From Mycobacterium sp. Marseille-P9652 (GTDB lineage Bacteria > Actinomycetota > Actinomycetes > Mycobacteriales > Mycobacteriaceae), in contig NZ_CACRUY010000002.1 of assembly GCF_902652685.1 (NCBI RefSeq), forward strand, positions 186,001 through 250,000: DNA of 64,000 bases, in the 5' to 3' direction. This document shows positions 11,656 through 21,333 of the stretch, one piece after another. The translations under genes and the position numbers were made by a program. Position 1 is the first letter of the stretch; every line of letters begins with the position of its first letter. The notes below the pieces were generated by a model. That model searched no databases. It saw nothing but the letters and a program-made list of their open reading frames with translations, and was not told where the DNA came from.

Positions 11656-14600
11656 GTGGTTGGGTCATCCATACCCGCTGTGCTGCGGGAGCTAGCCAGT
11701 TCGCGGCCCGGTGATACGGCTTTTACATACGTGGATTACGACCAGGACCCGGTGGGAATCGCCGAGAGCCTGACGTGGTCGCAGCTGTACCGGCGGACGC
11801 TGAACGTCGCTGAGCACCTTAAGCGCTGCGGGTCGACCGGCGACCGCGCCGTGATACTTGCGCCGCAAGGCCTCGAGTATGTGCTCGGGTTCCTCGGCGC
11901 ATTGCAGGCCGGGCAGATCGCGGTGCCGCTTTCGCTTCCGGTCGGCGGCGCCAGCGATGAGCGGGTCAACGCCGTCCTGCACGACGCCTCGGCCACCTCG
12001 ATCCTCACGACGTCCCCGTACGCGGCCAACATCGCCGAATACGTCACGTTGAAGCCCGGCGAGCGCGCTCCGTCGATCGTCGAAGTCGACTCGCTCGACC
12101 TCGACTCCGACAGCGTCCCGGCCGGCGATCCCGTCGACCCGCCGAGCGCCGCCCACCTGCAGTACACCTCCGGCTCGACGCGCACGCCCGCCGGAGTCGT
12201 CGTGTCGCACAGGAACATTCAGGTCAACACCGAACAGATCATGGCGGCCTACTACCAGCAGGACGGCGGCGTCCCCCCGCCCGACACCACCGTGGTGTCC
12301 TGGCTGCCCCTCTTTCACGACATGGGTCTGGTGTTCGGGATCATCCTGCCGGTTCTGGGCGGATTCCGCGCCGTCCTCTCGAGCCCGGCGTCGTTCCTGC
12401 AACGACCGGCGCGCTGGGTGCAGGGCCTGGCGACCCACCCCCACGCGTTCACGGCGGCGCCCAACATCGCGTTCGAATTGGCAACGCGCAAGACCACCGA
12501 CGACGACCTGGCGGGGCTTGACCTCGGCGGCGTGCGCAACATTTTGAACGGATCCGAACGGGTGAACCCGCCGACGCTGCGGCGCTTCGCCGAGCGGTTC
12601 GCGCGGTTCAACCTTCGGCCCGAGGCGCTGCGGCCGTCGTACGGTTTGGCCGAGGCCACACTGTACGTCGCCAGTCGCGGGTTGGGCGAAGGGCCGAAAA
12701 CCGTCTTCTTCGATTCCGGGAAACTGACTGGCGGGCAAGCGGAGCCGTGCGACGACGAGGACGGCACGCCGCTGGTCAGCTACGGCATGCCGGACTCGCC
12801 GACGGTGCGTGTGGTCGATCCCGAGACCAGCATCGAGTGCGGGCCGGGAACGGTCGGCGAGATCTGGGTGTTCGGGGAGAACGTCTGTGAGGGCTACTGG
12901 CAGAAGCCCGAAGAGAGCGAACGCACCTTCGGGGCAACGATTGTCGGCCCGTCGGCCGGCACACCCGAGGGGCCCTGGCTGAGAACCGGGGACCTGGGGT
13001 TCGTCTCCGACAACGAGCTGTACATCGTCGGCCGGATCAAGGATCTTCTGATCGTCTACGGGCGCAACTATTCTCCCGACGACATCGAGGCGACCATCCA
13101 GGCGATCACCGCCGGCCGCTGCGTGGCCGTCGCGGTGCCGGACGACGAGGGCGCCGAAAAGCTGGTCACCGTGGTCGAATTCAAGGCCAGCGGGGATTCC
13201 GAAGAGGCCGTGGCCCAGAAGCTGGGCGCCGTCCGGCGTCAGATCACCTCGGCGATATCCAAGACGCACGGCCTGGGTGTCGCGGATCTCGTTCTGGTGC
13301 CGCCCCATTCGATTCCCCTCACCACCAGCGGCAAGGTCCGGCGCAGGGACACGCTGCAGCTGTATCTGCACGACGAGTTCACCCGCCTGGACGTACCGAT
13401 CCGCCGGCCCAAGCCGGCCCCTCTCGTCGAGGACGCCGCGACGCCCGCCGGGCCCGACGCGGGTTGGGCCCAGCGCCTGCGCACGCTCCGACGGCAGCAG
13501 CACGACCTCCTGGTCGGCATGGTGTGCGAGCAGGCGGCAACGGTGCTGGGGCAGAGCGCAATCGACGACATCGACCCCGAATTAGCCTTCCAGGAAATGG
13601 GATTCGACTCGGTGAAGGCCACCGAGTTGCTGGACCGGCTCAAGACCGTCACCGAACTCGACTTGCCGCCCACCCTGGCGTTCGACTATCCCACCCCGGC
13701 CGCCCTGGCCACCCACCTCGGCCAGCGGCTCGGCGGGTCGATCGCGGCGGGCCCGGCGGCGGAGGCGCGGGTGGCCACGGACGAGCCGGTCGCGGTGGTC
13801 GGGATGGCGTGCCGGTTCCCGGGTGGGGTCGATTCGCCGGCGGCGCTGTGGGATCTGGTGGTCAGCGGCACAGACGCGCTGAGCGCCTTCCCCGAAGACC
13901 GCGGCTGGAACCTGGCGGACCTGTTCGATCCCGACCCCGACGCGGTGGGCAAGACGTACACCCGCTTCGGCGGGTTCCTCTCCGGCGCGGCCGAATTCGA
14001 CGCGGACTTCTTCGGGATCTCGGCGCGGGAGGCCCAAACCATGGACCCCCAGCAGCGCCAGCTGCTGGAGGTGTGCTGGGAAGCGTTGGAAACGGCCCGC
14101 ATCGACCCGACTTCCCTGCTGGGTTCTGAGACCGGGGTGTTCGTGGGTGCGTGGTCGCAGCAGTACGGCGCGGGCGGCTCGGACGGCGTGGAGGGGTATG
14201 CCCTCACCGGTCTGTCCACGAGCGTGGCCTCCGGACGGATCGCCTACGCGCTGGGCCTGCAGGGGCCCGCCCTCACCGTCGACACGGCCTGCTCCTCCTC
14301 CCTTGTGGCCACGCATCTGGCGTGTCAGTCGCTGCGCGAGGGCGAGTCGGCGCTCGCCCTCGCCGGCGGTGTGACGGTGATGACCACGCCGTCGGTGTTC
14401 ACCGAGTTCGCCCGGCAACGCGGGCTGGCCGCCGACGGGCGGTGTAAAGCGTTTTCCGCCAACGCCGATGGCACGGGCTGGGGAGAAGGGGCCGCCGTGC
14501 TGGTCCTCGAGCGGCTCAGCGACGCCCAGCGCAACAACCACCCGGTGCTGGCCGTCATCACCGGCTCGGCGATCAATCAGGACGGGGCCTCAAACGGCTT

Positions 14601-20600: not shown

Positions 20601-21333
20601 AGCGGCGCCGTCCGCCCCGGCACGCTCCGGCGGCGACCCGGTGGTGGAGGTCCCCGGCGTCACCGCGTACGTCGACCTCGGGGCATGGGACGCCCGCGCG
20701 AAAAGCCTTGGCGCAAGCAGTAACTCGCTAGTCGCGGGGATCGCGTGCCGGCTCGCGGTGCGGATGGGCCGCGTACAGGACGACGGAACGGTCACCCTGC
20801 GGTTCATGGTGTCGCTGCGCACCGAAGGCGACACCCGTGGCAACGCGCTCACGAGCGTCGACGTCCCCGTCGATCCGGCCCACGCCACCACGGACCTCAG
20901 GGCAATCCAGGCCACCATCACGCGGGAGATCCTCGCGACGATGGAGGATCCCGACAACGAGTGGTCGGCCCCGCTGCCGCTGGCGGCGCTGACACCGGCG
21001 TGGGTGGCCAGGAAAGTCGCGGGCATGGCGGTGGGCGGTTCCGCGCTGCCGGTCACCTGCTCGAACGTCGGTGACCTGTCCCCGGCGGCGAACCGGCCCG
21101 ACGGCACGGACGCCGACCGCGCCTACCTGAGGCTGATCGAACCCGACGCCCGCAAGAGCACGCTCGAGGCGATGGGTGGCCAATTGTTCCTGGGTTCCGG
21201 GCGGGGAAGCGGCAAGATGTCGCTCAGGATCTCCGCGTACCTCCCCGGCCAGCCGAACACCCGGGAAGAGTTGCGCGACATGGTGTTCCATACGTTTACC
21301 GAATTCGCCCTGGACGCGGAGATCGACAGCTAG
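11656..21333 (+). CDS. FAAL-PKS-acyltransferase megasynthase (FAAL-ACP-KS-AT-DH-ER-KR-ACP-HxxxD acyltransferase)
   Basis: A 3225-residue single chain. Fatty acyl-AMP ligase ~1-590 (P-loop [12 protein letters not shown] near 170, TTSGKVRR near 556); ACP1 with Ser652 in GFDS; ketosynthase ~710-1130 with Cys879, His1014, His1054; acyltransferase ~1245-1550 with Ser1337 in GHSQGE and YASH at 1437-1440, the methylmalonyl-CoA signature; dehydratase with His1647 and Asp1811; enoylreductase with GAGGVG ~2227-2232; ketoreductase with GGTG ~2413, LDD at 2498-2500 (B-type) and SSAAG...Y2555; ACP2 with Ser2720; C-terminal CoA-dependent-acyltransferase-like domain ~2775-3225 with HTIVD (His2908, Asp2912). 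By homology a free fatty acid is loaded as acyl-AMP, extended by a reduced alpha-methyl C3 unit (once or iteratively, as in Mas), then passed to an acceptor. It resembles FadD28, Mas and PapA5 fused together. The product is unknown. Confidence 0.93.

Follow-up and report, generated by a model that had tools for sequence, protein, structure and literature searches.

What would a mycobacterium make with a fatty acid activating enzyme, a complete polyketide synthase (PKS) module and an acyltransferase that are all joined in one chain? The question is raised by a gene of Mycobacterium sp. Marseille-P9652 that lies in the 64,000-nucleotide stretch analysed here, referred to below as the window (contig 2, 186001-250000, of a 5.7 Mb genome). 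A single frame, 11656-21333 on the plus strand, translates into 3225 residues without an internal stop, and the longest competing frame across it, on the minus strand, has 816 aa. The gene is real, intact and unusual. With moderate confidence, its protein is read as a self-contained synthase that would build a 2-methyl acyl chain in one round and release it by O-acylation, most likely onto the sugar of a glycolipid of trehalose or other type. Its parts are as follows.

11656-21333, plus strand: whole gene, GTG start, 3225 aa plus stop, in the order FAAL-ACP-KS-AT(methylmalonyl)-DH-psiKR-ER-KR-ACP-CT
11656-13395, plus strand: FAAL (fatty acyl-AMP ligase), residues 1-580, from NF004509 and FadD23/FadD28 structure matches
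13483-13740, plus strand: ACP1, approximate limits, GFDS at residue 649, from PF00550 and motif
13771-15060, plus strand: KS, residues 706-1135, Pks12/DEBS-like, from Pfam and KS comparisons
15391-16359, plus strand: AT, residues 1246-1568, methylmalonyl signature GHSQG/YASH, from Pfam and motifs
16498-17304, plus strand: DH, residues 1615-1883, from Pfam and motifs
17467-17868, plus strand: psiKR, the structural KR half (SpnB-type Rossmann), from PF22953
17962-18846, plus strand: ER, residues about 2103-2397, from PF13602/PF00107/PF08240 and a TIGR02824 stretch
18874-19410, plus strand: catalytic KR domain, residues 2407-2585, LDD (B-type) motif, from PF08659 and motif
19741-19923, plus strand: ACP2, GIDS at residue 2717, from Pfam and motif
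19990-21330, plus strand: CT, the terminal acyltransferase-fold domain, residues 2779-3225, from profile, fold and motif invariance

The initial annotation, made from the sequence alone, had described one 3225-residue frame with a FAAL, two ACPs and a fully reducing KS-AT-DH-ER-KR set, and translation, Pfam, NCBIfam and motifs confirm this; the domain search that it proposed recovered the named domains in order. Pfam E-values are 2e-56 (AMP-binding), 2e-93 (KS), 1e-89 (AT), 1e-25 and 1.5e-19 (DH, PF21089 and PF14765), 2.5e-17 (SpnB-type psiKR), 8e-23 (ER, as ADH_zinc_N_2) and 5e-55 (KR), and PF00550 (PP-binding) has two sites. The FAAL scores 934.9 against NF004509, fatty-acid--AMP ligase (cut-off 775), which places it in that subfamily, and matches the FadD23 and FadD28 structures with 758 and 636 bits; a specific insertion and CoA rejection are known for the FAAL family (excerpt of PMC8460268). 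The examined active-site motifs are found in every domain: YTSGSTR (170), GFDS (649), DTACSSS (876), GHSQG (1335), YASH (1437), LLDAALHP (1809), GIDS (2717) and SHTIVD (2907). The DH motif is HxxxDxxxxP, the usual one having G in place of this D, and its His and the Asp of LLDAALHP are both kept. The KS-AT-DH-ER-KR-ACP order with a GHSQG/YASH AT identifies a cis-AT modular type I PKS specific for methylmalonyl, as had been proposed from the same two motifs; of the 20 sequences shown, among them the window protein, 19 have YASH and one, L041, has HAFH. No thioesterase, as the initial annotation had also noted, and no sulfotransferase was matched by Pfam in the protein, so that release of the olefin-synthase kind was not found.

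Domain order, motifs, fold, family history and the layouts and surroundings of relatives are observed here, and from them we infer the following catalytic steps, together with the single round, the O-acylation and the acceptor. The FAAL would convert a free fatty acid to acyl-AMP and load it on ACP1, KS and AT would add one methylmalonyl unit, and KR, DH and ER would reduce it fully, giving on ACP2 a 2-methyl fatty acyl chain that consists of the starter plus three carbons. The HxxxD histidine of CT, a domain resembling wax ester synthase/diacylglycerol acyltransferase (WS/DGAT), would then transfer the chain directly to a hydroxyl. Because CT would hand the acyl group straight to this hydroxyl, neither a thioesterase nor a separate PapA would be needed.

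At E-values up to 10, Pfam returned nothing for CT save one chance row (DUF6907, E 4.3), and the description of the C-terminus as an HxxxD acyltransferase therefore needed profile and fold evidence. The AlphaFold model (AF2 pLDDT 82.4; fold search including Foldseek) has the condensation/PapA/WS-DGAT fold, its two lobes with a central HxxxD placing it in the condensation/CoA-dependent acyltransferase superfamily, and is near-tied among PapA5, C domains, plant acyltransferases and WS/DGAT. In hhalign, the CT profile is nearest WS/DGAT (96%, E 2.6e-9), with 31% for PapA (six PapA-like sequences, one just 19% like the first) and 17% for C domains of nonribosomal peptide synthetases (NRPS). HxxxD is invariant in all 28 aligned sequences (27 of 37 CT rows plus the window), the catalytic-type residues being His2908 and Asp2912 (HTIVD). 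The acyltransferase description thus holds by profile, fold and motif, with no Pfam match behind it. An analogy with PapA had also been drawn; it survives as function and fails as kinship, since CT was rejected as a PapA member on its profile and retained as fold kin. Likewise, the comparison with PapA and condensation families, proposed as a check, found a shared fold and a profile nearest WS/DGAT instead. PF00668 does not match the window CT but does match the PapA-like neighbour genes of relatives. Nor is CT a WS/DGAT proper: PF03007 has no match in it, the best free-standing CT reaches 21.5 bits against a cut-off of 23.6, and in place of the HHxxxDG active site CT has a single H (SHTIVDA). 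Against the PDB, CT as a single sequence has no match and its profile finds best the AmbE condensation domain, at an E-value (0.037) too weak alone. The Foldseek matches of the model include the enacyloxin-type C domain 6cgo; that such domains are missing from the best 50 rows of VIA-align fold matches carries no weight. CT represents a putative release-domain family without a Pfam match.

With a fold equally close to NRPS C domains, and with a paralogue in the same genome (contig 16) near large PKS and NRPS genes, CT might instead condense the chain with an amine, or serve in docking or gatekeeping, with release in trans. The invariance of HxxxD in 28 of 28 sequences, and the lack of amino-acid or peptide-assembly genes in the 16 flanking frames scanned, make such a role quite improbable. 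A true WS/DGAT gene is separately present in the window at 30678-32141 on the plus strand (PF03007, 256.9 bits), 9 kb downstream of the megasynthase.

The two other main parts have relatives of different kinds. Within its own genome, the window KS shares 67-68% identity with those of a contig 32 pair and of a 4170 aa two-KS gene, which is Pks12 by size, and 46% with that of a 2104 aa gene of MAS/Pks5 size. Against the PDB it scores 608 bits with 7s6b, 508-592 with DEBS entries and 376-396 with MAS; the MAS/Pks2-type model NF041183 gives 1085.6 against a cut-off of 2400. Judged by these comparisons, the KS is Pks12/DEBS-like rather than MAS-like. The FAAL is 64% identical to that of a lipooligosaccharide (LOS)-type locus on contig 9 of the same genome, which comprises FAAL, MMPL, glycosyltransferase (GT), PapA and PKS genes, and 39-40% identical to the other two FAALs listed at E<=1e-60 outside the fused pair. 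The simplest history would be the fusion of a FAAL and a CT, both of LOS type, onto a Pks12-like module. No free CT was seen in the contig 9 locus, which speaks against strict LOS pairing in this species.

Two minor observations concern these domains. One internal TAG was counted in the contig 9 FAAL (G000:C9:40230-41981; L088:4221-5978, plus strand), and it may have an effect on smooth or rough form. Within the KS region, window 14728-14802 on the minus strand matches the Rfam ASpks antisense RNA (54.2 bits, gathering score 52). This RNA family originated as antisense to pks12, and the match probably arises simply because the KS is akin to that of Pks12; an antisense RNA may nevertheless be encoded there.

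The CT family is widespread in the genus as free proteins and less so in fused form. Named loci found with CT number 32 (29 of Mycobacterium or Mycolicibacterium, 3 of Tsukamurella), with identities of about 80% to M. paraense, M. palustre, M. interjectum and M. terramassiliense and a weaker 39-41% to the Tsukamurella relatives. Of the 148 genomes sampled within the genus, 110 contain CT at E<=1e-100, among them the window genome, and free proteins with a length of about 450-560 aa make up many of the matches listed. CT is part of frames of 1,203-3,400 aa in at least 16 of the 148, and counting G026, where the fused part begins at a contig end, at least 17 carry a fusion. At E<=1e-150, matches are confined to 5 of 301 genomes of the taxonomic family, all within one of 31 genera, and to 2 of a set of 21 relatives, one of which is the centre genome; a plasmid collection gave two weak matches only, from Nocardia and Tsukamurella. 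The own-genome paralogue has 3227 aa and is 71% identical end to end, and three free-standing CT homologues lie on contig 31 (two) and contig 1. In a maximum-likelihood tree of 41 rows, all 30 fused CTs form one clade with 100/100 support, and its sister group, with moderate support (88/89), consists of three free CTs (L034, L035 and L047 of M. asiaticum), which stand next to a FAAL and not far from an MMPL transporter; many rows are close kin, so the tree shows clustering more than event counts.

Free CTs also occur in other settings. At L009:7539-15003, a PapA-like gene, two tandem free CT genes (without an NCBIfam match above cut-off) and an MMPL gene stand in series, which looks like an operon for a multi-acylated exported glycolipid. 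Within 15 kb, L037 (Mycolicibacterium setense) has three genes for free CTs together with a FAAL, an MMPL and a PapA-like gene, and no fused PKS was seen in the stretch examined. At L010:7388-13307, and on contig 1 of the window genome, a free CT has a P450 on one side and KS-AT-KR-ACP domains on the other, and condensation domains of NRPS type begin about 6 kb beyond.

Relatives would alter the product through other AT or reductive parts or through a second module. Layouts were determined using tblastn/blastp with the window domains plus motifs, and Pfam for three proteins; the 34-residue fragment L042 was excluded from locus framing. The window group and that of the paralogue (L007/L008, L046, L085) have one module with a full DH-ER-KR loop. 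KR alone is found in the M. asiaticum-titled L029, L031, L032 and L033 (A-type W motif) and in L083 and L086, and the L048 copy has KR, with DH and ER not found by Pfam. No reductive domain accompanies the methylmalonyl AT of L044 (Pfam-checked), L045 and L084 or the malonyl-type AT of L041, and L030 has a lone DH with Asp replacing the active His. Two modules, both full, are present in M. gastri L043, read whole (ORF1 Pfam-checked), and M. ostraviense and M. innocens have FAAL frames that match it, 2895 and 2887 aa long; L080 and L081 have a full module followed by a KR-only one in interrupted frames. The interruptions of these two fall in KS or AT, each on a contig of 4.5-5.1 Mb, and could be either decay or assembly error. 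Across 26 loci (best match), identity to the window protein is 78-90% for KS (25 of 26), 64-78% for FAAL (23), 58-82% for CT (25), 47-84% for AT (25) and 35-83% for KR (21), the lower ends for DH, ER and KR being mixed because some loci hold another PKS. The wider ranges of AT and KR than of KS would be expected if AT and loop swap more freely.

The interrupted L080 and L081, the missing DH histidine of L030 and the M. interjectum gene L022, whose frame is broken up and contains N, could suggest that the window gene too is silent or decaying and has no product. This is very improbable: its frame is intact, the examined motifs are present, and nine of the ten whole full-loop one-module loci have an intact frame of 3218-3368 aa from the first start, L022 being the tenth.

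In M. asiaticum, the fused gene has a MAS-like PKS gene on either side, one of which, read whole, scores 3243.8 against the cut-off of 2400 with the Pks2-type model, and PapA-like genes, a GT, an MMPL, a FAAL and a free CT are close by. These genes agree with the published LOS genes fadD25, mmpL12, papA4 and pks5 (excerpts of PMC8356964, PMC12507525, PMC5706390 and PMC4403928). A MAS-like PKS is present at L083, with a PapA past a transposase gene. The L030 gene begins 57 bp after treZ, which treY precedes, both above cut-offs. AT3-SGNH acyltransferase genes with EryCIII-like or homologous glycosyltransferases are found at L044, L045 and L046, a GMC oxidoreductase at L044, L045 and L041, and a TylF-type methyltransferase in the L046/L085/L008 group. 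By tblastn with 15 queries, L084 lacks all of these genes, but it has a P450. Around the paralogue (L008:5320-16000; G000:C16:54552-71256) large NRPS genes occur together with a PKS that has ATs of malonyl type, a GT and a methyltransferase, and the whole could be a cluster for a glycosylated lipopeptide.

How many rounds the module performs, and what receives the chain, must be weighed separately. Three observations favour a single round: for a second unit, relatives have an additional module; the KS resembles modular kinds more closely; and the modified, excised module 1 of Pks12, assayed for a single turnover, converted C10-C18 acyl-CoAs to 2-methyl acyl products (excerpts of PMC11574752). 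On the same grounds, the 'C3 units' of the initial annotation are unlikely in the plural. Observations that weigh against the proposed single round and glycolipid acceptor begin with the KS: the modular PikA1 entry scores 395 bits, no better than MAS, and Pks12 is said to work 'modularly iteratively' (excerpts of PMC11574752). Single use is not certain for these two reasons, the latter being the main doubt. The module might then act over several rounds like Mas or Pks12, to yield a multimethyl chain of mycocerosate or mycoketide type before release. One-module Mas-type enzymes are iterative, which also counts for such a synthase. We consider it unlikely, because the KS is nearer to DEBS-type entries and to Pks12-sized genes of its own genome than to MAS, because relatives gain a second module instead of relying on repeats, and because FAAL-ACP1 and CT fused at both ends would favour a single pass.

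The acceptor is opposed by more observations. The window gene does not lie in a LOS locus, as the M. asiaticum gene does. The 16 distinct flanking frames scanned contain no GT, MmpL or PapA, and tblastn of 15 neighbour proteins against the whole window recovered only one query itself, an oxidase described below. The treYZ genes are beside a fused gene in one case and could be a mere landing site; no sugar gene was found at L084 among those tested (tblastn, 15 queries); and in LOS producers the acyl chains are credited to pks5 (excerpt of PMC4403928). Kinship with WS/DGAT fits a fatty alcohol or diacylglycerol acceptor equally. The same chain synthesis could therefore end in a wax ester or triacylglycerol, with CT transferring to a long-chain alcohol or diacylglycerol as its nearest kin by profile do; two of the three own-genome free CTs reach TIGR02946 (58.0 and 34.4 bits), far under the cut-off of 309.95, and the flanking frames scanned are without sugar genes. 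WS/DGATs take acyl-CoA and not acyl-ACP, relatives neighbour LOS-type loci, treYZ, GT and AT3-SGNH genes, and the nearest CT relatives sit with FAAL and MmpL. A wax ester or triacylglycerol product is thus rather unlikely, and O-acylation of a glycolipid sugar is preferred.

Comparable enzymes share parts of this layout. Lines of FAAL-ACP-KS-AT-KR-ACP with their own release part are already known from the cyanobacterial olefin synthase (Ols), which extends a fatty acid once (excerpts of PMC11837247). Both have a FAAL-ACP start, one PKS module, a second ACP and a release unit; Ols adds one acetate unit, has KR only and releases an alkene by sulfotransferase-thioesterase (ST-TE; PMC11837247, same excerpts), whereas the window protein has a methylmalonyl AT, a full loop and a WS/DGAT-like CT. 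Relative to Ols, the kind of release domain, the complete set of reductive domains and the occurrence as a mycobacterial family are new. FadD28 or FadD26, Mas and PapA5 are separate proteins in mycobacteria, while the window protein is fused, its KS is not MAS-like and its CT is nearer WS/DGAT than PapA by profile. Pks12, the mycoketide synthase, is with the contig 32 pair the closest KS kind and shares a fully reducing module, but lacks a FAAL; in the excerpts of PMC11574752 it encodes no chain-terminating domain. WS/DGAT wax ester synthases (PF03007, TIGR02946) differ from the window CT, which is below the Pfam cut-off, has a single H instead of HH and is fused to an ACP. The enacyloxin PKS release domain (6cgo) has the same fold, and a C domain releases a PKS chain there according to the entry title. 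That condensation domain is a separate protein, and the window CT is only weakly like C domains by profile. Finally, LOS acylation involves pks5, papA4, fadD25 and mmpL12 in M. marinum and M. kansasii, the acylation being credited to PapA4 (excerpt of PMC5706390); genes in such loci are the closest relatives of the FAAL and CT parts of the fused protein, and the M. asiaticum fused gene lies inside one while the window gene lies elsewhere.

The initial annotation knew of no characterised product, and none was found among the open-licence papers listed (for example 15 of 152, 12 of 100 and 10 of 81 matches), in part from searches directed at lipids or release chemistry, most subscription papers being outside that scope. 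An indirect lead comes from M. kansasii, for which LOS ions with and without one acyl group are tabulated (excerpt of PMC4403928); they differ by 224.2 in all four listed pairs (LOS-III to VI), where its text says 221. A saturated C16 acyl replacing methyl is computed at 224.21. The difference fits a C10 starter plus two methylmalonyl units, palmitoyl being equal in mass, and is a lead rather than proof. Reportedly, 2,4-dimethyltetradecanoyl is present in M. kansasii/gastri LOS, and others have 2-methyl-3-hydroxy acids. The link runs through three species that we take to belong to the M. kansasii complex, not M. kansasii itself, and nothing usable on the lipid structures of M. gastri, M. szulgai and M. 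asiaticum was found in the open-licence literature.

It is tentatively suggested that the fused genes form a mycobacterial family of self-contained glycolipid acyl synthases, in which a FAAL and a free acyltransferase, both of LOS type, would have been fused once to the ends of a Pks12-like module and the product varied by natural exchange of AT and reductive parts. The layout would then spell the acyl chain of a species-specific surface glycolipid, with CT as a new family of on-line ester-forming release domains. A full loop would give 2-methyl, KR only 2-methyl-3-hydroxy, no loop 2-methyl-3-oxo (or 3-oxo with a malonyl AT) and two modules 2,4-dimethyl chains; the C16 acyl of M. kansasii-group LOS would be a C10 starter plus two units. 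If this is true, species-specific methyl-branched acyl chains of some non-tuberculous mycobacteria could be read from one gene, and a single gene would suffice to ask whether the short chains with methyl branches in LOS-like glycolipids come from an enzyme other than pks5. It would also provide a natural compact 2-methyl-lipid synthase with its own loading and release, absent from the engineered Pks12 module (excerpts of PMC11574752), and a release-domain family not matched by Pfam.

Other neighbours of the window gene include mtnA on one side and, on the other, an acyl-CoA dehydrogenase, an enoyl-CoA hydratase (ECH), a CoA-transferase and a carboxylase pair, with one more gene directly upstream.

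10052-11491, minus strand: FAD-linked oxidase like berberine bridge enzyme (BBE), divergent from the megasynthase, possible partner only

The BBE oxidase also accompanies L011 and L019, at the syntenic position, and a relative with 61% identity lies elsewhere in the genome of M. gastri, 76 bp upstream of the two-module pair (L043). By tblastn, these three of 89 loci are the only ones beyond the window, and the position is taken by ech, F420-type or other genes in the remaining full-loop loci. It was rejected as a fixed partner on this count and is at most a partner in some lineages. At L025:11368-12129 (plus strand), a UbiE-type methyltransferase gene begins 29 bp after the M. alsense version of the synthase, on the same strand.

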